Below, in pieces: positions 6,233-18,708 of a stretch of DNA of 34,987 nucleotides. This stretch comes from an uncultured Saprospiraceae bacterium (GTDB lineage Bacteria > Bacteroidota > Bacteroidia > Chitinophagales > Saprospiraceae): positions 1 to 34,987 of the forward strand of contig CALLVY010000050.1 in the NCBI GenBank assembly GCA_938015925.1. The letters are read 5' to 3'. The translations under genes were made by a program, and so were the position numbers. Each line of letters opens with the position of its first letter. The stretch's first letter is position 1. The notes under the pieces were generated by a model. The model saw nothing but the letters and a program-made list of their open reading frames with translations. It had not been told where the DNA came from and made no database searches.

Positions 6233-6634
6233 TGGAAAAGAACGATTGTTTTATTTGTTGGTTTAAGGTAGGGAAAAAAATATAAATCAACAGTAGTAAA
6301 CAGAAGGATCCGAAAATTTAGCGAATATTAAAGGGTACTCAAGGGTATGTAAGAAATAAATATTTACGACCAATTACAGTTACCTTTTTTTTATTAGGGG
6401 AATATAAAAGTGGATGGCTAATTATTGAAGCGTCTTATTTCAAAACGTGGATAGTGATTTTTGGTTCGAGATTAAATAAATCATCTTCAAACAACTTCAT
6501 TAAAAAAGCGAAACGAAAAAATAAAGTACTAGTGTTTTACACTTGTTGCTCAGGCATTGCTATGTCTATGGGATAGCATTATAGCTTAAGCAGGTGGTCA
6601 AAATTGTGTTACCAATAAATTAGTTCGTACCGCT

Positions 6635-6655
6635 TGAACCTCCGTTGTCGGTTTG
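6635..6655. repeat. 21-nt repeat, also present at 30186-30206
   Basis: The 21 bases tgaacctccgttgtcggttt plus a final g occur identically at 30186-30206, about 23.5 kb away, in another gene-free region. Both copies lie next to hairpin-rich sequence upstream of a plus-strand operon. This points to a dispersed intergenic repeat family. Confidence 0.75.
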
Positions 6656-6786
6656 AGATGAATTTTGTTTTTAGCCGAGGCGAAAAACGTAGGCGATGCT
6701 CAGGCATCGCTTAGGCCCCCCCCATCCGCTTTGCGGGTCACGAGCGATTGCTCGTTCATGCCTCGACTAAGCCTGAAACTCATCCC
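6655..6786. repeat. Palindromic intergenic element with imperfect terminal inverted repeats and internal hairpins
   Basis: The ends, 6655-6681 and 6760-6786, are imperfect reverse complements (19 of 27 positions identical, with more G-T pairs in RNA). Inside are three small hairpins: gcgatgc/gcatcgc at 6693-6710 with a 4-base loop, ccgc/gcgg at 6726-6736, and cgagc/gctcg at 6741-6754. There is no ORF. It resembles a REP- or MITE-like element, or a structured 5' leader if transcribed. It ends about 75 bp before the precursor start codon. Confidence 0.55.
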
Positions 6787-6805
6787 ATTTTAATGGCAAA
6801 ATAAT

Positions 6806-6859: not shown

Positions 6860-7039
6860 ATGAAAAAGAAAAAAGTTTTAAAATTGGATGTACTCAAGGT
6901 ACAAAGTTTTGTATTGAATGATCCTAAAGATGTTCAAGGTGGCGTTGCTGACACAGAGCCATATACAAAAGCAAAAGATTGTGTAATCCAAACTATGGAT
7001 ACCTCTCAGAAATGTTGCCTCCAAAATGATAACTCTTAA
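6860..7039 (+). CDS. Lanthipeptide precursor peptide (59 aa, Gly-Gly leader)
   Basis: The ORF encodes 59 residues starting MKKKKVLKLD. The leader, residues 1-28, is Lys-rich, contains LKVQSFVLND (residues 12-21) and ends QGG at 26-28, the usual cleavage signal for C39 peptidase exporters. The LxVxSFV pattern resembles leaders of Bacteroidota class I lanthipeptides such as the pinensin group (from memory, not searched). The core, residues 29-59, begins VADTEPYTKAKDC and has Cys41, Cys52 and Cys53 with Thr32, Thr36, Thr45, Thr48, Ser49 and Ser59 as possible dehydration sites. Thr48-Ser49 lying four residues before Cys52-Cys53 could give two intertwined rings as in the C-terminal part of nisin. 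The following operon supplies dehydratase halves, cyclase and a C39 exporter. Ring pattern and cleavage site are inferred. Confidence 0.87.
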   Translation: MKKKKVLKLDVLKVQSFVLNDPKDVQGGVADTEPYTKAKDCVIQTMDTSQKCCLQNDNS

Positions 7040-7083
7040 TTGAGTTCCCCAAAATGGTCTCTACCTAACTTGAGGTAAGAAAA

Positions 7084-7160
7084 TTTGCTTCGAGCAAAAT
7101 GGAGATGATTTTGAATCTGTGCTCCTTATTGGAGTTGTTTTCAGTAAGGAGTACTTTTTA
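7084..7160 (+). terminator. Hairpins between precursor and biosynthetic genes (attenuator-like)
   Basis: Two hairpins follow the precursor stop. A small one has TTTGCT/AGCAAA arms around a tcg loop (about 7085-7098). A larger one has arms 7119-7128 and 7145-7154, ten pairs including one G-T, with a 16-base loop, and is followed by TTTTTA and further T-rich DNA. This is the form of an intrinsic terminator. Partial read-through would give much more precursor mRNA than enzyme mRNA, as is usual for lanthipeptide operons. Confidence 0.6.
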
Positions 7161-7194
7161 GTTTTTTAATTATAATCATATAAACATTCCTTTT

Positions 7195-8223
7195 ATGCAA
7201 TATTATTTAAAAAGGTATTTGCCGGTAGTAAAGAATCCTCAAAAAATCAAAATAGGTGTAAAATCGGAAGGCATAATTGTTGAGAACACCCCCGCCAATA
7301 TCGTTTTATTGGAAAAACTGATTGAGACCGGAATTTCCGAAGAGGACATTGCCAATGAAGCATTTTTTGGTTGGATGAAGGAAAAAGAGATGTTGACTCC
7401 TACGATGAAGGGGATTCGAAAAGAACTGTTTTTGGAATATATGGGCGTTCCATTGGAACGATCTATTTTGTCGAAAAAATTATTGATACTGGGAGCAGGG
7501 GGAATGGGTTCTACAACTGCGTTTATGTTGGCTCAATTCGGATTCAAAGACTTGACCATTGTAGATTATGATGGTGTTGAAGAATCAGAAATAGAAAAGA
7601 TGATGGTCTATCGAAGAGAACATTTGGGGCAGCAGAAAACAGATGCATTGAAACAAATCCTAGAAGGGACATTCGACTATTGTAATGTGAAAACCATTGA
7701 ACAAAAAATAAGAGGCAAAGAAGATATTTTTAGAATTATTGAGGAATCTGATCCCGAATTTGTAATCAAAGCGATGGACCCCAAAGATGTTGGTTTTCGC
7801 TTGTGGTTAAATGAAATTTGTTTTCATAAACAGATTCCTTTTGTCAATAATTCTTATTCCTTTGAGTTTATTCGCTTAGGTCCTTTATTCGCTCCGGGGA
7901 TAACAGATGCCTGCGACAATTGTTGCAATTTATGGTTTATGAAAGGACAAGGAGCGGATGCGGACTTTAATGCTTCTGAAAAATTATTCCACAGCTACAC
8001 AATTCATCCGGCGATATCTTTTAACATCAATATAGCAGCAAGTTTAGCAGTAAAAGATATCATTTTCTTTTTTGCGAAGAAATATGAATACGTGAGTTCT
8101 TTTAGTAAGGTTGTCGATTTTAAATCTTTGGAATTGCAAGGAGAAGTTGTTGAAATTACCCGACATCCAGCTTGTAAAATTTGTAGTGAGGTGGAGCTAG
8201 ATGTAAGGTCATCAGTTGCTTAA
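7195..8223 (+). CDS. E1/ThiF-like adenylating enzyme with RRE-like N-terminal domain
   Basis: The 342-residue protein has a Rossmann nucleotide-binding loop GAGGMGS (100-106), an acidic strand end TIVDYDGVEESE (121-132) and a downstream Lys148, matching E1-like enzymes (ThiF, MoeB, MccB). Two Cys pairs, C240-DN-C243 and C327-KI-C330, are the structural zinc site. The usual NLNRQ segment is replaced by EIEKMMVYRRE. Residues 1-55, with RYLPVV, a strand IKIGVKSEGIIVEN and a helix IVLLEKLIETG, resemble the leader-binding (RRE) domain fused to ThiF-like proteins in azoline peptide clusters. No YcaO gene is nearby, so an azoline role is unlikely. It may present the leader to the dehydratase, adenylate the peptide C-terminus or a side chain, or both. 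It is the first enzyme gene after the precursor. Confidence 0.75.
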   Translation: MQYYLKRYLPVVKNPQKIKIGVKSEGIIVENTPANIVLLEKLIETGISEEDIANEAFFGWMKEKEMLTPTMKGIRKELFLEYMGVPLERSILSKKLLILGAGGMGSTTAFMLAQFGFKDLTIVDYDGVEESEIEKMMVYRREHLGQQKTDALKQILEGTFDYCNVKTIEQKIRGKEDIFRIIEESDPEFVIKAMDPKDVGFRLWLNEICFHKQIPFVNNSYSFEFIRLGPLFAPGITDACDNCCNLWFMKGQGADADFNASEKLFHSYTIHPAISFNINIAASLAVKDIIFFFAKKYEYVSSFSKVVDFKSLELQGEVVEITRHPACKICSEVELDVRSSVA

Positions 8224-8249
8224 AAAATCAATCAATATTTAATATAATT

Positions 8250-10952
8250 GTGCAAATATTTCCAAAAATATTATCTAGAATTGCTAGTCAACCTTTTTTA
8301 AGATTAGCGCCTTTAGTTCATCAAGAGCTTAAGGAACAAGTGCGATCATTAATACAATTAGAAGAAGCAATAGAAAAAGGCAAAGAAGAAATATGCAAGG
8401 ATCTTTTCCTAAATATTGGTACAGAAAAGGATCAGTCTCGGAAGGAAATATTGATAGGACTTAAAAGAAAAATTTTTAATGGAAGAAAGATTTCGGAAAA
8501 TCAATTTTTCGAATTGCAATCAATATTAGAAGAAGAATTGTATGATAAGATCAAGCAACTTTTAAAATCAAAAAATCAAATTAAAAAAACAAATCAGGCA
8601 TTAGGAAACACTATAAAGAAATACTTGGATAAAGACAGAACATACCTCAAAGTGATTGCGGATGAAACCTTGTTTAAAAACGGTTTACTCTTGTCTTCGC
8701 ATTCTTTCCTCAACCAAATTTCTAAATACAGAAAGAAAGAAATCGACTCTTTTCGAAAGAAAGAATACCAAACGGAACTAGGTTTGCTAAAGTACCTTAC
8801 GAGAATGTATACCAAAACAAGCCCCTTTGGTTCGTTTACCTCTGTTGATATTTCAACACCTGATTTTATTCCAGACTCCGATACCCATTTGACGATTACC
8901 GGTTCTTTTAAATCAACAATAAGTTTAGATGGATTTATTGTCAAATCTATCGACACTTTGTTAAAGAGACTAGAAGAGATATACACTTGGTATCCGCTTA
9001 GTTTAAATAACACTTTGCTTCTCGGAGAAGAAGAAATCCTGTTTTATAAAAATGAATACCTTTTTTATCCCACTCAAAATAACCACGAATCTTTTCAAAG
9101 AATAAAAAACACCCCAATACTAATGGCCATTTGTTCTTTTTTCAAAAACCAAAGAGGGCTAGTTTTTTATCAGGACGTACTCAACGAATTGTTATTATCT
9201 GTAGATGCAGGGAAAGAAGAAATCAAAGCTTATATCAATGACTTAATCAAGAGCGGTCTTTTAGAGTGTGCAGAAAGGGTTACGGCGACTACCTCTAATT
9301 GGAGTCTCTATATGGAAAATAAAATGGAACAATTGATTGTGGAAAAAAGCCCTTTTGTGGAAAATATTTTAGGAATTCTTCGGCAAATTAATAAAGGGAA
9401 AAAACAATTTTGTATCGCTGGATTCGAAGAAAGAAGACGAATTATTCCAGAAATAAAAAGGCACCTGCATGAAATCTACGAAGTCATAATCGAACAAGTG
9501 AAAAAGGAGGAGACGGTCTGTTTAATGTCCAATGAAGAGGTATTCGATGCAGTGAAAAAATTGAAAAATTACACAGACAAACGCAATGTTTTTTATGAAA
9601 ACATAAACAAGACAAGTCATTTAAAAATTAATAAAGATTTATTTGAAAGCCTGTTTTCGAAATTGAGTCGTTTGTCTCATGTAGTTTATAATAGTCGGTC
9701 AAATCCAATTGGTTTAATGAAAGCGACTAGTTTGTTTTTGGCCTTGTATAAAACAGATGCGGAACCTTCGTTAATAGAATTTCACGAGCAATATTATAAA
9801 TGCATTACCCAAAAGAATATTTCCAAAGATGCGGAGATGAATCTAAGCTCATCGAAGTATACGGAGGAATTGGAAAAACAAAAAAGAGCGTTTAAAGAAT
9901 CCCGAAATCACTGGTTGAATGCAGTAGAAGAAAAATTGACAGCCTATCTGTCCAAAGGGCAGACAGAAGTTCATTTAGGAGAAAATTTTATTCTGGATCT
10001 AGAAAAGGTAAACCGGAGAGATAATAGATCAAGCGCTAATGCTGCTCTTAAGCATGGTGCTTATATTCAGTTGGTAGAAAGGAAGAAAGAAGAAGATGCC
10101 ATAATGGTATTAAATTCTATTTCTTCTGGTTACAGCAAAATGTTTAGTCGCTTTTTAAGTCATAGTGATGAAGCTTTGATAGATACCTTTAAACAGTGGA
10201 ATACTAGTAATAAAGAAGAGGGAGCAACTTTTGTTGAGATCGAAGATGAATCCGCTTTTAGTGCCAATGTTCACCCCTTGATTCTGCCACAAATAATTCG
10301 ATTAAAAGGAGATACGACTAATACTGGAAATGGATTGTCCTTGGGAGATTTGAAGATACGATACCATCCAAAAAATAAAGAAATCGAACTTTTTAATCCG
10401 ACAAATCAGCAAACCTATTATTGTTTTGATATGGCTTTTCAAGCGCTAGTGCTAAGATCCGAAATGTTTAAATTTTTAAGTCTTTTTGATATTGCACTCA
10501 TTCCTATCATAGATGATATTTTAGAAAAAATAAATAAGCTCTGTTTTGTTTCAGAAAAGAGCATTAACATTCAGCCCAGAGTTATCTATGCAAAGAATAT
10601 CATTCTGCAAAGGAAAACCTGGCTAATTGATAAAGCAGAACTTCCGGAGCGATTAGAGAAAGAAACATTATCAGAATATTTTATTAGGTTAAATATTTGG
10701 AAAGAGCGTCATGAAATTCCGGATGAAGTATTTATTTCTATTCCAGGAAAAGTCGAACTTTCTAATAAGGATGATTATAAACCGCAGTATATAAATTTTA
10801 ATAGCCCTTTAGTCGTTCGTTTGTTTGATAGAACGGTGAAAAAACTAAAAACACATTTAGTACTTGTTGAAATGCTTCCAGCGTCGAAGCAATTATTGAA
10901 AAGCAATGAAGAACCATATGTCTCTGAATTTTTAGTGCAATGGCAAAGTTAA
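8250..10952 (+). CDS. Stand-alone LanB glutamylation subunit (lantibiotic dehydratase N-terminal domain)
   Basis: The 900-residue protein has hallmarks of the Lant_dehydr_N family: RMYTKTSPFGSFTSVD near 185-200 (family pattern TPFG.F), a central VNRRDNRSSANAALKHG block, NPTNQQTYYCFD, and a late IQPRVIYAKNIILQRKTW region with conserved Arg and Trp. Such domains transfer glutamate from glutamyl-tRNA to Ser/Thr of the core. There is no fused SpaB-type elimination domain at the C-terminus; that activity is encoded separately at 15813-16715. The start is probably the GTG at 8250, 26 bp after the E1-like gene; no ATG fits better. Within this architecture the protein should recognise the leader, perhaps together with the E1-like partner. 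Confidence 0.88.
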   Translation: MQIFPKILSRIASQPFLRLAPLVHQELKEQVRSLIQLEEAIEKGKEEICKDLFLNIGTEKDQSRKEILIGLKRKIFNGRKISENQFFELQSILEEELYDKIKQLLKSKNQIKKTNQALGNTIKKYLDKDRTYLKVIADETLFKNGLLLSSHSFLNQISKYRKKEIDSFRKKEYQTELGLLKYLTRMYTKTSPFGSFTSVDISTPDFIPDSDTHLTITGSFKSTISLDGFIVKSIDTLLKRLEEIYTWYPLSLNNTLLLGEEEILFYKNEYLFYPTQNNHESFQRIKNTPILMAICSFFKNQRGLVFYQDVLNELLLSVDAGKEEIKAYINDLIKSGLLECAERVTATTSNWSLYMENKMEQLIVEKSPFVENILGILRQINKGKKQFCIAGFEERRRIIPEIKRHLHEIYEVIIEQVKKEETVCLMSNEEVFDAVKKLKNYTDKRNVFYENINKTSHLKINKDLFESLFSKLSRLSHVVYNSRSNPIGLMKATSLFLALYKTDAEPSLIEFHEQYYKCITQKNISKDAEMNLSSSKYTEELEKQKRAFKESRNHWLNAVEEKLTAYLSKGQTEVHLGENFILDLEKVNRRDNRSSANAALKHGAYIQLVERKKEEDAIMVLNSISSGYSKMFSRFLSHSDEALIDTFKQWNTSNKEEGATFVEIEDESAFSANVHPLILPQIIRLKGDTTNTGNGLSLGDLKIRYHPKNKEIELFNPTNQQTYYCFDMAFQALVLRSEMFKFLSLFDIALIPIIDDILEKINKLCFVSEKSINIQPRVIYAKNIILQRKTWLIDKAELPERLEKETLSEYFIRLNIWKERHEIPDEVFISIPGKVELSNKDDYKPQYINFNSPLVVRLFDRTVKKLKTHLVLVEMLPASKQLLKSNEEPYVSEFLVQWQS

Positions 10953-11011
10953 ATACTTACTTATAAATTTTGCATAGTAGTAAACGATTCTCTATACACG
11001 CTGTACCCTTT

Positions 11012-13207
11012 ATGAAAAAAAGACGATTCCCATTCTATAAGCAACATGACCAAATGGATTGTGGTCCGACCTGCATAAAAATGATTGCTGATTTTTATGG
11101 GAAAGAATACAGTTTGCAATCACTTAGAGAAAAGTGTTATTTTACTAGAGATGGGGTGTCTCTGAAAGGGATGATGGCGGCCTCAGAAAATATCGGACTA
11201 CAATCACTTCCTGTAAAAATTCCATTTAGTGATAGTGGACCAGAGGGTGTTTCCTTGGTTGATATTCCGCTGCCCTGCATCGCACACTGGGATCAAAAAC
11301 ATTTTGTAGTGGTCTACAAAATTTCTAATAAATACGTTTGGTTAGCTGACCCTGCTCAAGGTAAATTGAAAGTGACCTATGAGGTGTTTAAGAAGTTTTG
11401 GATAAGTGATGAAGACAAAGGCGTTGCACTCTTATTCGAACCGACTCCTCTTTTTTATGAAAAGGAAGGAGAAACTACAAAGCAAAAAGGGTTTTCTTTT
11501 CTTTTCAATTATTTGAGGCCCTATAAATGGTTACTCGTTCAGATTGTGATAGGTTTGCTCATTGCAAGTTTGTTACAACTCGTCCTTCCCTTTCTCACCC
11601 AATCCATTGTAGATATTGGGATAGGGACGAGGAATCTCGAATTTATTTACCTGATTCTTCTAGGGCAATTGATGATATTTGTCGGAAGTGTTTCTGTTTA
11701 TATCTTGCAGCAATGGTTATCTCTGCACATCAGTACTCGGATCAATATTTCTTTGATTTCTGATTTTTTATTTAAACTAACGAGACTGCCCATCAAATTT
11801 TTTGAAACTAAAATGATTGGCGATTTATTACAACGAATCACCGACCACCAAAGAATCGAAGCATTTTTGACCACAGCAACACTTAATGCGATCAATTCCA
11901 TGATCAGCATCCTTAGTTTCGGAATCGTCTTATTTATTTTGAATTTTCAAATCTTCTTAATATTCGTAATTGCCAGCGGGATTTATTTTTTATGGATTTC
12001 ATTATTTCTTAAAAAAAGAAGAGAAATAGATTTTGCGCACTTCCGGGAAATGTCGAATAACCAGGATGCCTTGATAGAAATTATCCAGGGTATGCAGGAA
12101 ATAAAATTGCAAAATAGTGAGCACAAACATCGACTGAATTGGAAAAGTATTCAGACGAAATTATTTAGAGTCAGCATGAGAGCATTGTCTATTGCTCAAT
12201 GGCAGGAAATAGGAGCCAATGGCATCAATCAGTTAAAGGATATTTTTATTTCTTTTATCGCAGCCACTGCAGTCGTAAAAGGAGATATGACGCTGGGTAT
12301 GATGATGGCAGTGCAGTTTATTATCGGGCAATTGAATGTGCCTCTTCAACGATTGGTGGGCTTGATTCAATCGGGGCAAGATGCCAAAATTAGCCTAGAA
12401 AGATTGGGAGAAATACACGATCAGGAAAACGAAGAAGGCATAGAAAAAATAAGCATCAATACGATTCCGGAGAAAAATATCGTAATCGAAAATATGAGCT
12501 TCCAATATACTCCTATCACGGAAGTTGTCTTAGAAGACATCAACCTCACGATACCTCGGAAAAAGGTAACTGCAATTGTAGGAGTAAGTGGCTCTGGTAA
12601 AACAACACTGGTAAAATTACTACTCGGATTTTATCAGCCAACAGCTGGAACCCTAAAAATTGGAGATACCCCAATTGAAAATATTTCTCAAAAACTTTGG
12701 CGACAAAAATGTGGCGCAGTATTGCAAGATGGCTATGTTTTTTCAAACACCATCGCCAATAATATTGCAGAATCAGACGATATGGTCGATCAGGAAAAAT
12801 TACTAAAAGCAGTTGAAGTAGCCAATATCAAAGATTTTATAGAATCCTTGTCTTTGGGCTATAATACGATGATTGGCGCTAAAGGAAATGGTGTCAGTCA
12901 AGGACAGAAACAAAGGATGTTGATTGCAAGAGCTGTTTACAAAGATCCAGAGTTTATTTTTTTTGATGAAGCGACCAATGCCCTAGACGCCAATAATGAA
13001 CGAGTGATCATGAAAAACTTAGATAACTTTTTCAAAGGACGAACAGTCATCGTAGTCGCACATAGATTAAGTACGGTAAAAAATGCCGACCAAATTGTGG
13101 TGCTTCATCAGGGGCGAATTGTGGAGACCGGAACGCATGAAGAATTGGTTGCTAAACGAGGAGAATATTATGTACTCATCAAGAATCAATTAGAATTAGG
13201 AAGCTAA
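11012..13207 (+). CDS. C39-peptidase ABC exporter (bacteriocin/lanthipeptide transporter)
   Basis: The 731-residue protein begins with a C39 peptidase domain (about 1-145). Catalytic Cys17 lies in QMDCGPTC after Gln11 of the oxyanion hole; His97 (QKHFVVV) and Asp113 (LADPAQG) complete the site. About six membrane helices span roughly 165-435. The ATPase domain has Walker A GVSGSGKT (524-531), signature VSQGQ (628-632, usually LSGGQ) and Walker B IFFDE (649-653). It should cut the precursor after Gly-Gly and export the core. The frame is open to a TTG at 10970, but the ATG at 11012 fits the usual C39 N-terminus and is preferred. The stop overlaps the next gene by one base (TAATG). Confidence 0.92.
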   Translation: MKKRRFPFYKQHDQMDCGPTCIKMIADFYGKEYSLQSLREKCYFTRDGVSLKGMMAASENIGLQSLPVKIPFSDSGPEGVSLVDIPLPCIAHWDQKHFVVVYKISNKYVWLADPAQGKLKVTYEVFKKFWISDEDKGVALLFEPTPLFYEKEGETTKQKGFSFLFNYLRPYKWLLVQIVIGLLIASLLQLVLPFLTQSIVDIGIGTRNLEFIYLILLGQLMIFVGSVSVYILQQWLSLHISTRINISLISDFLFKLTRLPIKFFETKMIGDLLQRITDHQRIEAFLTTATLNAINSMISILSFGIVLFILNFQIFLIFVIASGIYFLWISLFLKKRREIDFAHFREMSNNQDALIEIIQGMQEIKLQNSEHKHRLNWKSIQTKLFRVSMRALSIAQWQEIGANGINQLKDIFISFIAATAVVKGDMTLGMMMAVQFIIGQLNVPLQRLVGLIQSGQDAKISLERLGEIHDQENEEGIEKISINTIPEKNIVIENMSFQYTPITEVVLEDINLTIPRKKVTAIVGVSGSGKTTLVKLLLGFYQPTAGTLKIGDTPIENISQKLWRQKCGAVLQDGYVFSNTIANNIAESDDMVDQEKLLKAVEVANIKDFIESLSLGYNTMIGAKGNGVSQGQKQRMLIARAVYKDPEFIFFDEATNALDANNERVIMKNLDNFFKGRTVIVVAHRLSTVKNADQIVVLHQGRIVETGTHEELVAKRGEYYVLIKNQLELGS

Positions 13208-14556
13208 TGCCAGATCCAGAAAAAAAAATATCGCCAGAAGAAAAAGGTGTCTTTTCCATAAAGTATGCGGAAGAAGAAGATGTCTTAGGAATACCTCCAA
13301 GATGGTTGATGAAATGGGGGATATCAATTATCGGCTTTGTTTTTTCGATCTTTTTTATGTTGTCCTTTGTGATTAAATATCCAGATATTATAAGAGCTCC
13401 AATCGTCATTACCTCTCAGAAACCACCGATTCAACTTGTCGCTAAAAGCAGCGGGATAATAGAACAAATACTCGTCAAAGACAATACTCCCGTAAAAAAA
13501 GGAGAAATAATCGCTTTGGTAAAAACTCCTTTGTATTACCCTCATTTGCAAACACTCCGTGATTTTATTGCCGCATTTGAAAATGTCGAAGAACAAAAAG
13601 GGTATGAAAAACTATGGATTCCAAAGAATCTGGAATTGGGTCAATTGCAAACAAGTTATAGTACCTTGATTCAAAATTATGAAGAATTTCAACACTTCTC
13701 CCAGCGGCAAATAACCGGAGTGAAAGTAGAATCTTTAAAGCAACAAATCCAACAGATTACCCGACTAAACAAGTCTATAGAGAAACAAGAAACTTTATAT
13801 GAAAAAGACTTTGCATTGAAAAAGAAAAACTTCGAAAGGTTTCAGGGTTTGAATCAGGAAGGTTTGATTAGTGATATTGAAAAAGAAGAAAAGCAATCTA
13901 TACTTTTTCAGGAAGAACAAAAATTAGAAAACTTACGCTCGACAAGAATCAATAATGACCTTAGAATTGAGCAATTGAGCGCAGAGATCAAATTTTTAGA
14001 TAGTGATCGGCAATTAGGAGGGTCGACAAGGTTGCTTAAAATTCAACAACTGGTGGAACAACTCAAAGGAGAAATGGCACAATGGGAGGAGATAAATATT
14101 ATCAAAGCATCCATAAATGGAGTTTTGGCTTATTCAAATATTTGGAGTGATCAACAAGATATCGAAATAGGAGAAAACTTGTTTACTATTCTGCCAGGTA
14201 AAAACCAAGGAGCTATTATCGCGAGGTGTTTTTTACCAACGCAGCGATCTGGAAAAGTAGCGGTACATGCAAAAGTAAATATTCAAATTGATGCGTTTCC
14301 CTCCCAAGAGTTTGGAGTACTAGTGTCGGAAATTACTGCCATTTCAAAAATACCTTCTCCTGTCGGGCAAAATCAATTTGGTCAAACTCAATTTGCCTAC
14401 ATCGTTGAAATTCCTTTATCAGATTCTTTAGTGACAACTTATGGTAAACAAATTCCTTTTAGACAAGAAATGAAAGGAACGGCTCAAATCATTACAGAAG
14501 AAAGAAAAATCATTGAACGAATTTTTGATAAGGTATTTAATGCAATTAAAAATTAG
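13207..14556 (+). CDS. HlyD-family membrane fusion protein
   Basis: The 449-residue protein has one N-terminal membrane helix (about 37-57, ending in VIKYPD), then a biotinyl-lipoyl-like strand region PPIQLVAKSSGIIEQILVKD with VKKGEIIALV (near 73-105). A long alpha-helical coiled coil, rich in Glu/Gln/Lys, covers about 145-275, and a second lipoyl half and beta-barrel follow (INGVLAYSN, FLPTQRSGKVAVHAKVNIQIDAF). This is the layout of HlyD-type periplasmic adaptors that link an inner-membrane ABC exporter to an outer-membrane channel. Translational coupling to the C39 transporter (1-base overlap) argues that the two form one export complex. A TolC-like partner is not in the locus and is presumably encoded elsewhere. 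Confidence 0.9.
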   Translation: MPDPEKKISPEEKGVFSIKYAEEEDVLGIPPRWLMKWGISIIGFVFSIFFMLSFVIKYPDIIRAPIVITSQKPPIQLVAKSSGIIEQILVKDNTPVKKGEIIALVKTPLYYPHLQTLRDFIAAFENVEEQKGYEKLWIPKNLELGQLQTSYSTLIQNYEEFQHFSQRQITGVKVESLKQQIQQITRLNKSIEKQETLYEKDFALKKKNFERFQGLNQEGLISDIEKEEKQSILFQEEQKLENLRSTRINNDLRIEQLSAEIKFLDSDRQLGGSTRLLKIQQLVEQLKGEMAQWEEINIIKASINGVLAYSNIWSDQQDIEIGENLFTILPGKNQGAIIARCFLPTQRSGKVAVHAKVNIQIDAFPSQEFGVLVSEITAISKIPSPVGQNQFGQTQFAYIVEIPLSDSLVTTYGKQIPFRQEMKGTAQIITEERKIIERIFDKVFNAIKN

Positions 14557-14599
14557 ATAGGAATTAGAGCTAAATCGAAATTAAAATAAAAAAAGGCAT

Positions 14600-15808
14600 A
14601 TGAAAACTTTAAGTAAATTACTCGCACCACTTAGTAGTCAAGCTTTTTTTGAAGACTACTGGACCCAAAAAGTGTATCTGCAAAAAGGCGATCCCAAAAG
14701 ATATGATGCCCTTTTTAATTGGGAATCATTCAATCAATTATTAGATGAACATCTCTATCATTTGTCTTTCCCGGATATTAGAATGGTACACGATGGAAAT
14801 TTAATTTCGGAGGATAATATTACGGAATTTATTCCATCTAGGAGGTTCGGAAAAATTAAAAAAATCTCTGCAGAGAAGATTAATAAACTGAGCCAACAAG
14901 GAGCTACATTGGTATTGGATGCGGTAAATAAAATTAGTCCTGGCCTCCGTCTGTTTGCAAGTCAATTGTCTTCAGAATTTGGGGATAAAGTGCAAATTAA
15001 TACTTACTGTTCCTGGAAAGGCAGGCAAGCTTTTGATGTGCATTTTGATTTGCAAGAAGCCTTTATTTTGCAAATTGAAGGCAGTAAGAATTGGGAGGTC
15101 TACGAAAACTTGGGAACGGAATTTCCAATTAAAAACGATCACGATAAATCGATTGATGCAGAGGTTAAACCTTCTGTGAAATGCACACTGCATAAAGGAG
15201 ATTTGTTGTATATCCCAAGAGGGTTTTGGCATTCTGCCTTAGCCCAAGATGAACCCTCTTTACACATTACTGTTGGGGTTTATTGCAAAACAAAAATAGA
15301 TTTTATTAAATGGGTTGCCAATGAAGTTTTAACGAAACAGGAAAAATTTCGGAAAAACATTCCACTTTCATCAGCTGAAAATCGAAAGACGCATCCCGAA
15401 GAATCTTTAGCGGGCATTTTGGATGATATTAAAAAAAGCCTTTCGCCGGAAGTTGTCAATAAGTTTAATGCCTATTGTTTGGAAGAAAATGGATTGATTA
15501 AAAATTTCAGTTTTCCTTCTTCTGTTGTTGATGAACCAATTCCAAATCAAGAATCAAGTTTCTATCGATTGCCAAGTCAAAGAGTATTGGTCAATGATTT
15601 AGAAGAGGAGGAAGGGGTGAAAATTTTTTATGGCAATAAAGAATTGATCTTTAGAGGAAAAGTTGAAAAAATTGTAAATGGTATTTTTTCAAACGAGTCG
15701 TTTACCGGAACTGATGTATTGGCTTTTGATGAAGATTTTGACTGGGAAGACATTGAACCCATTCTTTCTTTGCTGTTGAGGGAACAAGTTATTTATCTTA
15801 AAAATTAG
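14600..15808 (+). CDS. JmjC/cupin Fe(II)- and 2-oxoglutarate-dependent oxygenase
   Basis: The 402-residue protein has the double-stranded beta-helix of the Cupin_4/ribosomal-oxygenase type. The iron triad is visible as H148-F-D150 in FDVHFDLQ and H211 in PRGFWHSA. A Lys-containing strand, QIEGSKNWEVY (158-168), follows the HxD motif where these proteins bind 2-oxoglutarate. The C-terminal ~75 residues (ELIFRGKVEKIVNGIF to REQVIYL) look like a winged helix. Family members hydroxylate protein side chains. Its place between the exporter genes and the LanB elimination subunit (4 bp before the next start) suggests that it hydroxylates the lanthipeptide core, for instance an Asp, Asn, Lys or other residue; the target is unknown. 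A housekeeping ribosomal role is possible but unlikely in this operon. Confidence 0.82.
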   Translation: MKTLSKLLAPLSSQAFFEDYWTQKVYLQKGDPKRYDALFNWESFNQLLDEHLYHLSFPDIRMVHDGNLISEDNITEFIPSRRFGKIKKISAEKINKLSQQGATLVLDAVNKISPGLRLFASQLSSEFGDKVQINTYCSWKGRQAFDVHFDLQEAFILQIEGSKNWEVYENLGTEFPIKNDHDKSIDAEVKPSVKCTLHKGDLLYIPRGFWHSALAQDEPSLHITVGVYCKTKIDFIKWVANEVLTKQEKFRKNIPLSSAENRKTHPEESLAGILDDIKKSLSPEVVNKFNAYCLEENGLIKNFSFPSSVVDEPIPNQESSFYRLPSQRVLVNDLEEEEGVKIFYGNKELIFRGKVEKIVNGIFSNESFTGTDVLAFDEDFDWEDIEPILSLLLREQVIYLKN

Positions 15809-15812
15809 AAGG

Positions 15813-16715
15813 ATGGGGTTTGGAGAAAATGCTGACTTTACTTGGGTCTCCACACATATTTACATTACAGGAAGAACGCTTCGTTTTTTGACAGAAGGAT
15901 TGTTGCCATTATTGGAACAACTAAATGAAAAAATAAAAATTGATCAATACTTTTTTATCCGCTACCGAGATCCTGAATTCCACATTCGACTTCGATTAAA
16001 AGTAGAGAAAAATAAAGTTAAAAAAGTAGAAGCTTTTATTTTGGATTTTTTTAGGATTTGGACAAGTCAAGGAGCTGTAGCACCAAAGGAATTAATTTCC
16101 ATTACAGCCATAAAATTTATTGAATACCAACGGGAGATGCAAAGGTATGGAGGTCTGAAAAGTATTGGAATCATAGAAAAACAATTTTGCTATTCTTCCA
16201 AAACCTGTTTGCAGATTTTAAAGGAGGATGCTGCTCAAAATTATGAAAGTATTTTGGGAAAGGCCATTCAAATGCACTTGAGCCTTGTCGCTACTTTTGA
16301 ATTTGACCAAGATCATACCTTGCAATTATTTAAAAAAATATTATCAAACTGGTCTGTAGTTCATCTAAATGCTTTTACCGTAAAAGAACAAGTAGAAAAA
16401 AATCAAGAAGAATTAATTCAGCAATTCCAAAAGTCATTGACTCCCAATCGCTTGTTTGTTTTGGAACAAATTAGTTCTTTTTTGGAGGCATTAAAGCAAG
16501 GAAAAAAGTTTGAATCGGGGTGGATGCAAGAATGGATAGAAGACCTGAAAAAGACCGGTGATGCTTTGAAGAAAATACATTCAGAACAACTTCCTTTAAT
16601 TGTGGCAGATCTTATTCATATGACGAACAATCGCCTCGGAATTTTCAATAAAGACGAGTCTTATTTAGCTTACATTATTATAGAATCTTTGGAGTATGCA
16701 AAGCATGGAAGATAA
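15813..16715 (+). CDS. Stand-alone LanB elimination subunit (thiopeptide-type bacteriocin biosynthesis protein)
   Basis: The 300-residue protein matches the SpaB_C/Lant_dehydr_C family: it starts with WVSTHIYITG, carries FFIRYRDPEFHIRLRL (about 47-62) with the conserved Arg and His residues, and ends with DLIHMTNNRLGI near 268-279, whose His and Arg are family hallmarks. The domain removes glutamate from glutamylated Ser/Thr to leave dehydroalanine or dehydrobutyrine. It is encoded separately from the glutamylation subunit, as in thiopeptide systems. The ATG follows the oxygenase stop by 4 bp and has a purine-rich agaagg just before it. Its end overlaps the cyclase gene by 20 bp. Confidence 0.88.
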   Translation: MGFGENADFTWVSTHIYITGRTLRFLTEGLLPLLEQLNEKIKIDQYFFIRYRDPEFHIRLRLKVEKNKVKKVEAFILDFFRIWTSQGAVAPKELISITAIKFIEYQREMQRYGGLKSIGIIEKQFCYSSKTCLQILKEDAAQNYESILGKAIQMHLSLVATFEFDQDHTLQLFKKILSNWSVVHLNAFTVKEQVEKNQEELIQQFQKSLTPNRLFVLEQISSFLEALKQGKKFESGWMQEWIEDLKKTGDALKKIHSEQLPLIVADLIHMTNNRLGIFNKDESYLAYIIIESLEYAKHGR

Positions 16716-18615
16716 AAAAGTGTTTATAGCTTATGCTCAGAAAATTGGAGATGCTTTAATCGCAGATTCCAATGGAAAAATAGATTGGGAAGCCATTGAT
16801 GACCCCGTCAACTCAGCTAATGAATACAATATTAGTTTGTACACAGGGATTTCTGGAGTCTTACTTTATTTCGGGCAATTGTATGGACAAACAGGAGAAC
16901 CAAAATACTTTTCCGTATTGGAAGATGGTTTGAATTGGCTGAAAAAGAATAAAATAAAATACGAACAAAAGAATTATTCCTTTTATGCCGGACAGTTAGG
17001 GATCGTCTATACCTTGACCCAAATTTCTAAATTGGTTCCTGTAAATCAGAAAGCAGCCTACCTAGATTTAGCTTTGGAAATTACAGAAAAAGCTTCTGCT
17101 CATCAATACAAAATTGCAGAACATGTTACGGATCTTATCGGTGGAATAGCTGGAATGATTATAGCCTTGCTGCATTTACATTCCTGTCGGCAAGAAGCAT
17201 GGATAATAAAAGATATTCAACTATTGTTCAGGTCAATTATTGAACGGACAAGTTTAAGCAAGGCTGGCATTTTTTGGGAGCGAAATCCAAAACACAAAAA
17301 TGGCTTATGTGGTTTTGCTCATGGAGCTTCTGGTTTTGCTTTTGTGTTTTTAGAACTCGGAAGTTATTTTAAAAATAAAGCCTTTTATAAATTGGCAGAA
17401 TTGACTTTGGCGCATGAAAACCTTTTTTATGACGCTGAAATAATGGATTGGATTGACTTGCGTTATCTAGATGAAGAACTAGAATGGATGGCCAAATCCT
17501 ATCGAGATACCAGACAAATAAACTTTGATAAAAAGAAAAAAATGACCGCTTGGTGTCACGGTGCACCAGGGATAGGACTGACTAGACTTCGAGCTTTTGA
17601 ATTAACGAAAGAAAAACAGTATCTGAAGGGACTCGAGTCGGCTTTATTGAAAACAAAAGCCTTTTTCGAAAAGCCGACAGGGCTTTGTCTATGCCACGGG
17701 ATTACGGGCAATGCCCTACTCTTTCTAGAGTTGTACAAACGATTAGAAGACGACCGCTACTTAGAGTTTAGCGTCAATATTGGTAAATCTCTTGCGAAAG
17801 AATTACCTCCTTTTGGCTTAGCTAATTTTGCAGAAAAAATCACCTCCCTTCCTGTCTATTCTCTATTTCTTGGGCAAATGGGATTGGGATATTTTATGTT
17901 GCAATTAGCAAATCCATTGACTTTTGATTCTGTATTATTTCCTGCAATAAACGATAGTTATCAGGGGCCTGCAAATTACTTGACCGATGTTTCTTTCTTG
18001 GATGTCAGCAATGAGTTATACCTAGTTTGCTATCCCAAATCCTATGTTCTTTTAGATGAAAAAATAAGAACTCCTATTGGTGAAATTCCTTCCGAAAATT
18101 TCGTTGAAGCACTTGGTCGCTCCTTCCAGAATAGCATCAAAGCAAAGGCCTCTTCCGCGATTAATGAAATTTTTAAAATAGAACAGAATAAACTCCTTAG
18201 TTTGGCTAATGTAGAAGATAATGCAACACTTGAAATTGTAGATCGCCTGGAAAAGGAAAGGAATAAAGAAAAACTGAAACAAGATATTAATTCCTTGGTA
18301 TTAAAATTAAGTAAAACAATTCAGTTGTTTGAGAATACGAGAAATTGGGGGGGCTCAAATTGGAGAACTGCTGAGTCAGAAGAAGAAGGGCCGTATTATT
18401 TAGTTTGTAAGCTAACAGCAAAAGGAGTTGTGGAATACCAGATAAATTGGTTCACTTTTCTAGTGCTCTCTTCTACTCAAGAAGCAGGAACAATTAAGGA
18501 GATAAGTGAAAAAGTCAAGCAAGAGTTGATTGATTTTCAGATTGATGATCTGGATCGATTAATTCAAGCGCAAATCGAAGAAGTGCTAAAAGAAGCCTTG
18601 GTACAGGTTATTTAG
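16696..18615 (+). CDS. LanC-type lanthionine cyclase with C-terminal extension
   Basis: Residues about 40-415 form a LanC-like alpha/alpha toroid with GISGVLLYFG, FYAGQLGIVY, GLIGGIAGM-like and GFAHGASGF repeats. The zinc ligands are intact: Cys287 in WCHGAPG, and Cys333-His334 in LCHGITGNALL. Such enzymes add Cys thiols to dehydrated residues to make (methyl)lanthionine. The protein has 639 residues, against about 400 for normal LanC. The extra ~215 residues include a charged helical stretch (about 480-545) and a C-terminal segment (572-639) resembling a small winged helix. The ATG at 16696 lies inside the previous gene; a second ATG at 16705 is equally possible. This is the last gene of the operon. 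Confidence 0.9.
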   Translation: MQSMEDKKVFIAYAQKIGDALIADSNGKIDWEAIDDPVNSANEYNISLYTGISGVLLYFGQLYGQTGEPKYFSVLEDGLNWLKKNKIKYEQKNYSFYAGQLGIVYTLTQISKLVPVNQKAAYLDLALEITEKASAHQYKIAEHVTDLIGGIAGMIIALLHLHSCRQEAWIIKDIQLLFRSIIERTSLSKAGIFWERNPKHKNGLCGFAHGASGFAFVFLELGSYFKNKAFYKLAELTLAHENLFYDAEIMDWIDLRYLDEELEWMAKSYRDTRQINFDKKKKMTAWCHGAPGIGLTRLRAFELTKEKQYLKGLESALLKTKAFFEKPTGLCLCHGITGNALLFLELYKRLEDDRYLEFSVNIGKSLAKELPPFGLANFAEKITSLPVYSLFLGQMGLGYFMLQLANPLTFDSVLFPAINDSYQGPANYLTDVSFLDVSNELYLVCYPKSYVLLDEKIRTPIGEIPSENFVEALGRSFQNSIKAKASSAINEIFKIEQNKLLSLANVEDNATLEIVDRLEKERNKEKLKQDINSLVLKLSKTIQLFENTRNWGGSNWRTAESEEEGPYYLVCKLTAKGVVEYQINWFTFLVLSSTQEAGTIKEISEKVKQELIDFQIDDLDRLIQAQIEEVLKEALVQVI

Positions 18616-18674: not shown

Positions 18675-18708
18675 AAAAGCGTTTCGAAGAAACCTCCGAA
18701 ACGCTTTT
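18675..18708. terminator. Bidirectional intrinsic terminator closing the RiPP operon
   Basis: Arms aaaagcgtttcg (18675-18686) and cgaaacgctttt (18697-18708) are perfect over 12 bp with a 10-base loop. A T-run on one side and an A-run on the other allow termination in both directions. It sits between the convergent LanC and YceI genes, 60 bp after the LanC stop. Confidence 0.85.

Follow-up and report, generated by a model that had tools for sequence, protein, structure and literature searches.

A pinensin-like lanthipeptide locus with an MccB-like E1 protein and a JmjC oxygenase in an uncultured Saprospiraceae bacterium

Gene set and lanthipeptide machinery

Contig CALLVY010000050.1 of an uncultured Saprospiraceae bacterium (GenBank assembly GCA_938015925.1) was analysed from position 1 to 34,987; this whole stretch of 34,987 nucleotides is referred to as the window. 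Between positions 6860 and 18615, it contains a compact, operon-like set of eight intact genes with open frames, all on the + strand, which encode, in this order, a precursor peptide, an E1-like protein, the glutamylation half of LanB (LanB-N), a C39 peptidase ABC exporter, an HlyD-type adaptor, a JmjC oxygenase, the elimination half of LanB (LanB-C) and a LanC cyclase. A first-pass annotation, made from the sequence alone, had described a Gly-Gly precursor followed by these seven same-strand genes and had interpreted them as a class I lanthipeptide locus with a split LanB, a JmjC oxygenase and an E1-like protein carrying a RiPP recognition element (RRE; RiPPs are ribosomally synthesized and post-translationally modified peptides). 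Frames and domain matches confirm the gene order, and the class assignment is supported by matches over the cut-off to PF04738, PF14028 and PF05147, combined with a precursor containing Cys, Ser and Thr. The locus very likely makes a lanthipeptide.

The precursor (6860-7039, + strand, 59 amino acids) is of the LanA type, with the Gly-Gly leader MKKKKVLKLDVLKVQSFVLNDPKDVQGG and the core VADTEPYTKAKDCVIQTMDTSQKCCLQNDNS. The core contains three Cys (Cys13, Cys24 and Cys25) and six Ser/Thr residues, has neither Arg nor His, and ends with the tail Asn-Asp-Asn-Ser; its calculated monoisotopic neutral mass, before any modification, is 3448.525. The leader begins with LKLDVLKVQSFV (pattern LKLDxLKVQSFV), which resembles the start of pinensin-type leaders. 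A gap of 155 bp separates the precursor from the E1 gene and contains a strong hairpin with a T-run (7119-7154, + strand), identified by RNA folding and overlooked in the first-pass annotation. This is probably a partial terminator, which would be a common way of giving the precursor an excess over the enzymes. The seven enzyme genes are spaced by -20 to +43 bp (counted on first-start open reading frames, ORFs).

The LanB-N gene (8250-10952, + strand; PF04738, E 1.5e-28) belongs to a group whose profile matches TbtB (6ec7) at 165 bits. It is followed on the same strand by the C39 exporter (10970-13207; PF03412, E 9.4e-34, as well as PF00664 and PF00005), which contains the motifs QMDCGPTC and HFVVV, and by the HlyD-type adaptor (13207-14556; PF13437, E 3e-7; TIGR01843 at 88 bits, under the cut-off). 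LanB-C (15813-16715, + strand) matches PF14028 (149.5 bits, E 2.6e-43) and, over the cut-off, TIGR03891 (135.1 bits). LanC (16696-18615, + strand; PF05147, E 1.5e-52) combines a LanM-like cyclase domain, in which H209, C287, C333 and H334 are present, with a C-terminal extension; its best NCBIfam match is TIGR03897 (215.5 bits, under the cut-off of 304).

Relatives of LanB-N were collected by scanning genome_contigs with one peptide motif and a nine-sequence alignment (59 pattern matches, 50 confirmed) and were read with flanks of up to 10 kb, several contigs being short, so that absences apply to the stretches read. LanB-C was found in 42 of these 50 loci, LanC in 38, an exporter above 250 bits in 32 and all three in 27; 8 of the 50 had no LanB-C match and 12 no LanC match. 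The LanB halves lie within 500 bp of each other in 41 of the 42 loci that have both (the exception is L155); those of the window are separated by the exporter, the adaptor and the JmjC gene. The source genome has five PF04738 places, the four beyond the window lying on contigs C488, C168, C349 and C218. The place on C218 (L089), with a C39 exporter and HlyD alongside, runs into the contig end.

Among the 50 loci is that of Chitinophaga sp. YR627 (L128), whose precursor reaches 42.5 bits with the pinensin leader model and whose core equals pinensin (PMC9248904). Comparison with this locus, as the first-pass annotation had proposed, indicates that the core layout of the window set is that of the pinensin cluster type. 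The two share a C39 exporter, a split LanB combined with a LanM-related LanC that bears the same kind of extension, and an LxLxxLxVxSF-type leader ending with Gly-Gly, whereas L128 lacks E1 and JmjC, has adjacent LanB halves and encodes an unrelated core. The additional suggestion that the product may represent a new subclass was not supported: split LanB, LxLxKx5L leaders ending with Gly-Gly, C39 exporters and LanM-related LanCs have all been described for pinensin and other Bacteroidetes clusters (PMC7268733).

The C-terminal extension of LanC (17929-18612, + strand; residues 412-639), which the first-pass annotation had not mentioned, comprises about 220 amino acids and is modelled as a helical part followed by an RRE-like winged helix. 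The extension is found in all 36 LanCs of the group longer than 560 amino acids (the window included; LanCs of L111-L160); these were retained from 39 matches including the window by a length threshold, which favours long proteins. Two of the three shorter LanCs (L119 and L145) end with the contig, and in the third (L150, 425 amino acids) the extension lies in another frame past the stop codon. An AlphaFold2 model of the extension was built from an alignment of 34 of the 36 sequences (L154 and L156 were dropped) and reached a mean predicted local distance difference test score (pLDDT) of 90.9 and a predicted template modelling score of 0.84. The only Foldseek match below 0.001 was TglHI chain A (2.8e-4). 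With VIA-align, the extension scored Z 13.2 against TglHI (200 residues, root-mean-square deviation (rmsd) 9.2) and 12.5 against 3dee (187 residues, rmsd 4.9), and its last 100 or so residues scored 9.2 against NisB, 8.8 against MibB, 8.5 against residues 1-81 of MccB, 8.5 against TbtB, 7.9 against TbiB1 and 6.4 against PqqD. We take the matched parts of NisB, MibB, MccB and TbtB to be their RRE regions, so the modelled winged helix appears to resemble solved RREs. The same list contains a histone methyltransferase (9.1) and PKMT2 (7.3), and a Z near 8 can reflect a common arrangement, so the winged helix by itself proves little, and the assignment is carried by the run of RREs in the list and by the RiPP setting. 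On the basis of this model, the extension is predicted to be RRE-like throughout the pinensin-like LanCs. A literature search of partial coverage (including PMC7470986, PMC10352776 and PMC12710340) returned no report of a LanC with an RRE.

E1-like protein and JmjC oxygenase

The E1-like protein (7195-8223, + strand; PF00899, E 6.7e-30) is MccB-like, with an N-terminal RRE-type region, assigned from sequence comparison only, followed by a ThiF adenylation domain. The closest solved chain is MccB (3h5a, 83.2 bits over residues 87-332), followed at a distance by MoeB (40 bits) and PaaA (36 bits). Plasmid searches gave distant matches only; in one of these, residues 1-330 of E1 are 24.7% identical to a ThiF-family protein in a microcin C-like gene set. 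In the alignment, E1 retains GAGGMG, D124, D126, K148, the Mg-type Asp D195 and two CxxC pairs. It thus shares an RRE-type region joined to a ThiF domain, the conserved Lys and the Mg-type Asp with MccB of microcin C7, PaaA, GrcB, EnfB and IndF. These ThiF-like RiPP enzymes adenylate a carboxylic acid (PMC12150305, PMC12250964), and the C-terminal tail or an Asp side chain would therefore be the expected site of E1 action. The precursor of the window differs from those of the MccB type in being a lanthipeptide-type peptide ending with Asn-Asp-Asn-Ser, and genes for microcin C export or immunity are absent beside E1.

The combination of E1 and JmjC with LanB/LanC occurred only here in the searched data. 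Neither gene was found in any of the 50 LanB-N loci or in 16 stretches surrounding LanB-N places in relatives from the order (eight of these stretches repeat loci of the 50, and one is a second locus of the source genome); this result, from the co-occurrence search that had been suggested in the first-pass annotation, speaks against a conserved subclass. Searches for E1 itself yielded 16 pattern matches in genome_contigs, none of them confirmed; 21 genomes, including the source, among 298 of the order at 1e-10 (the 20 others partial, the best at 50.5 bits); 9, including the source, among 395 of the class at 1e-12 (the longest other match covering residues 37-313 at 24%); and 3, including the source, among 398 of the family. 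The same genomes recur across these draws, which are samples of known species, so the counts are not additive. The sole full-length ortholog found (about 32-33% identity, E 7e-53) belongs to the family genome G1027, and in 42 genomes of its genus E1 was present in G1027 alone. A literature search found no paper joining lanthipeptide, hydroxylase, cupin and LanB; the one near precedent in its partial coverage comes from Abiotrophia defectiva, where a ThiF gene adjoins one for a lanthipeptide dehydratase (PMC12250964).

The ortholog in G1027 is encoded in a locus (L171, 270-7836) where it lies behind a 67-amino-acid ORF with a Gly-Gly leader and the core VLAECHLPPLPPIEPIRTDNI, and the further genes encode a 370-amino-acid protein, a metallo-beta-lactamase-like protein, a C39 exporter (53% identical to that of the window) and HlyD. 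In the 20-kb stretch, tblastn detected no LanB, LanC or JmjC, nor did the LanC profile find a match. JmjC was also absent genome-wide at 1e-5 (the search for LanB-C and LanC was confined to the stretch), and the single PF04738 place of G1027 is a solitary LanB-N inside another, 20-kb contig. Allowing for the contig end, which would hide any further genes, E1 of this genome appears to function independently of lanthionine chemistry, and this argues for a modifying enzyme rather than a helper of LanB. The C-terminus of the L171 peptide (DNI) agrees with that of the window precursor (DNS) in the pattern Asp-Asn-x, which occurs in none of 37 other precursor candidates (36 plausible, one plainly spurious). 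Taken together, these features lead us to infer that E1 is a tailoring adenylyltransferase, and catalysis on the peptide appears somewhat more probable than passive leader binding.

Two further observations concern relatives of this enzyme and its setting. The 370-amino-acid neighbour in L171 contains HQCGH and matches the model of alpha-ketoglutarate-dependent HExxH peptide hydroxylases at 14.4 bits against a cut-off of 40; this is a lead only, by which an oxygenase may accompany E1 there too. In two genomes of one family (L109, 7921-9535; L110, 8372-10014), a more distant, MccB-type RRE-ThiF gene follows three tandem short ORFs ending with Trp-Asp-(Arg/His/Tyr/Gly)-Asn, and a larger ORF and one resembling a response regulator come after it. 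The arrangement suggests a microcin C-like or ThiF-type RiPP locus that has not been described, and the Trp-Asp-x-Asn ends would be in line with the use of a C-terminal Asn by MccB.

The JmjC oxygenase (14600-15808, + strand) is a JmjC_2 protein of the ROX type (PF08007, 91.9 bits against a cut-off of 22, E 2.9e-26) in which the metal site HxD...H (H148, D150 and H211) is present, as is K163; the closest solved chains are NO66 and MINA. The source assembly has no other PF08007 place, and none was found in the same-genus genome G822 at 1e-5. Within the class, homologs were detected in 13 of 395 genomes including the source at 1e-8, with 14 other places, all of which were scanned with marker profiles. 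Seven of the 14 lie in RiPP-like loci. PqqD and an Asn-synthase occur near JmjC in L042, L046, L047, L049 and L050. In L048 (9062-13585), JmjC adjoins a split LanB pair and a small Gly-Gly ORF, without E1, and no LanC was found in the 19.5-kb stretch. L043, where a C39-type exporter accompanies small ORFs whose nitrile hydratase-like matches stay under the cut-off, was likewise judged RiPP-like. None of the tested RiPP markers was found in L040, L041, L044, L045, L051 and L052, although L044 has a radical S-adenosylmethionine gene (DUF3641 type), and L053, with an Asn-synthase match at the stretch edge only, was not counted. In three of these class genomes, an ORF of 95-99 amino acids with a hydrophobic stretch and Cys directly precedes JmjC (L041, 6936-7223; L044, 8756-9055; L052, 9026-9319) and is possibly its substrate there.

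Arg or His are the usual targets of this JmjC group; given a core with neither, the enzyme of the window probably targets Asp, Asn, Lys or some other residue. JmjC-type hydroxylation of a RiPP has a precedent in BipG of biphenomycin, which hydroxylates Orn (PMC12707348), and some JmjC proteins carry RRE-like domains, with bacterial homologs in RiPP-like contexts (PMC12710340). The locus resembles the biphenomycin pathway in associating a JmjC-type oxygenase with a RiPP precursor and differs from it in a core without Arg; the biphenomycin pathway is not a lanthipeptide pathway. We consider it quite likely that JmjC hydroxylates the peptide. With E1 and JmjC in one operon-like set, the tailoring beyond lanthionine that the first-pass annotation envisaged is probable; each of the two also occurs in other RiPP-like loci, E1 in L171 and JmjC in the seven listed above.

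Borders and genomic context

On the right, LanC is followed by a 15-bp hairpin (18675-18708; -16.7 kcal/mol, z -5.6), the bidirectional terminator predicted in the first-pass annotation, which closes the gene set, and then by the YceI gene. The repeat proposed at the left is also real: it is a multi-copy intergenic element (6600-6800) at the left border of the extra DNA, with 60 matches in the source genome including itself, of which the other 59 are partial and often correspond to modules 1-82 and 84-201. RNA folding of 6655-6790 within this region gave z -4.9. Some copies are located at contig ends, and one is on C218, the contig with a second split-type LanB-N.

The first-pass annotation had made no mention of a same-genus genome, G822, without the locus at this site. 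There, the YceI and acyl-CoA synthetase genes are adjacent (89 bp apart), whereas in the window they are separated by about 12.5 kb, and the left border of this extra DNA lies somewhere between 6233 and 6860. The further flanks (MerR-like, ORF20909, ORF2378, ORF1244 and ORF389) are collinear, and the seven flank proteins are 59-84% identical to their counterparts (YceI compared over residues 65-220 only); the comparison involves this one genome, the single member of the genus that appeared in the family search. In L177 (13402-15198), the acyl-CoA synthetase gene of the closed site contains an in-frame TAG. The greater A/T content claimed for the locus holds on average, the G+C fraction in 1-kb windows being 0.32-0.38 inside and 0.345-0.44 outside (mostly 0.37-0.43), with an overlap in the near flanks. 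Loss in G822 would also fit the closed site, but the A/T-richness favours gain, and the locus was probably acquired by horizontal transfer in the lineage of the window.

Alternative readings and proposed pathway

Thiopeptide clusters can combine a split LanB with an adjoining E1-like RRE protein, and the window shares this layout with the TbtB/TbtF type, while lacking a YcaO, having a LanC and encoding an E1 under the cut-off of TIGR03882, the model of E1-like partners in thiazole/oxazole-modified microcins. E1 might then be a catalytically degenerate, ocin-ThiF-like partner that binds the leader and passes the precursor to the split LanB, and the product an ordinary, perhaps hydroxylated lanthipeptide. 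The E1 gene lies directly before LanB-N, there is a weak TIGR03882 match (24.6 bits) and an RRE-ocin-ThiF class has been described (PMC7470986). Moreover, Lys135 stands where EnfB and PaaA have an essential Arg, 13 residues before the conserved Lys (R174/K187 in PaaA, where R174A sharply reduces activity, and R167/K180 in EnfB, where Arg167 is essential; PMC12250964), so that Lys148 and Asp195 are kept from the MccB-type set of Arg, Lys and Mg-binding Asp and the Arg is replaced. The G1027 ortholog also has Lys here, which would fit constraint as well as a shared loss. However, the TIGR03882 cut-off of 36.9 is not reached, this type of LanB manages without E1 in all 50 related loci, no LanB is present on the stretch around the ortholog, and E1 retains its Gly motif and Cys pairs together with both Asp, the Lys and the Mg-type Asp. 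All this makes a degenerate E1 rather unlikely.

It is less probable still that the locus is a plain pinensin-like cluster in which E1 and JmjC are passengers or serve another substrate, such as a ribosomal or self-protection target of JmjC. Their combination is a singleton, ribosomal proteins are the substrates of the closest solved JmjC_2 relatives, NO66 and MINA, and of the L16 arginine hydroxylase, and seven of the 14 other JmjC places (one of them L053, with its edge match) show no tested RiPP marker. Against this stand the seven RiPP-like places, the conserved JmjC motifs, the tight packing of the gene, which starts 43 bp past HlyD and ends 4 bp before LanB-C, and its uniqueness in the 7.5-Mb assembly. 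Although that assembly is a draft of 905 contigs that is 77.8% complete, and a multi-copy repeat marks the left border, a wrong join of the cluster to the genome is very improbable: LanC, terminator and YceI are continuous, the same-genus genome has the flanking genes of either side in matching order and the frames are open.

The preferred reading, held with moderate confidence, is a lanthipeptide operon of the pinensin-like kind to which two tailoring enzymes have been added. In addition to Lys135, several points weigh against it. The window precursor scores 14.7 bits on the pinensin leader model NF038180, under the cut-off of 24, which all eight group precursors scanned exceed; therefore, we call the locus pinensin-like rather than a member of the pinensin family. 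The core ends with Ser, whereas MccA ends with Asn, and the Asp-Asn-x agreement involves two peptides, that of L171 having been chosen among overlapping ORFs. The contig of L171 ends 0.7 kb from the start of its E1 gene, with any genes beyond out of view, and the structure prediction for E1 (pLDDT 33) was unusable and was not used. No immunity or regulator gene was recognised within the eight-gene set, and the searched data contain no second instance of E1 and JmjC with LanB/LanC, so that selection acting on the combination as a unit is not demonstrable. The lanthipeptide part belongs to a known type, and the E1 and JmjC additions are new within the searched data; neither a new subclass nor an ordinary lanthipeptide is proved.

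All of the proposed chemistry is deduced from sequence. The leader would be bound by the RRE-like domains of LanB-N, the LanC extension and E1. LanB-N would glutamylate Thr and Ser of the core using Glu-tRNA, LanB-C would eliminate glutamate to yield dehydroamino acids, and LanC could close up to three thioether rings at Cys13, Cys24 and Cys25. JmjC would hydroxylate a core side chain, and E1 with ATP might adenylate a carboxylate near the Asn-Asp-Asn-Ser tail, leading to cyclisation or to a lasting conjugate, before the C39 exporter removes the leader behind Gly-Gly and, with HlyD, exports the product. An analogy for such sharing of a precursor is pantocin A, in which an RRE-ThiF enzyme (PaaA) and a 2-oxoglutarate-Fe(II) oxygenase (PaaB) act on one peptide (PMC12250964), although that system has no LanB or LanC and differs in oxygenase and core. 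In its fullest form, which we advance tentatively and with some doubt, the proposal combines lanthionine rings with chemistry of the microcin C/pantocin type, that is, an E1-derived second acyl macrocycle, an imide or a nucleotide conjugate at the C-terminal end or Asp, together with a JmjC-derived hydroxyl; an E1 with Lys for Arg and Asp-Asn-x substrates might then represent a new ThiF-like subfamily, and the RRE on LanC a second new feature.

The peptide may carry modifications that are not known from the pinensin family. If E1 activates a carboxylate, two RiPP chemistries would be united in one operon, a natural test of how enzymes share a leader. If the LanC extension is indeed an RRE, its attachment to the cyclase would be a new feature common to the whole pinensin-like group and would explain how the cyclases of this group find their substrates, which is testable in pinensin itself.

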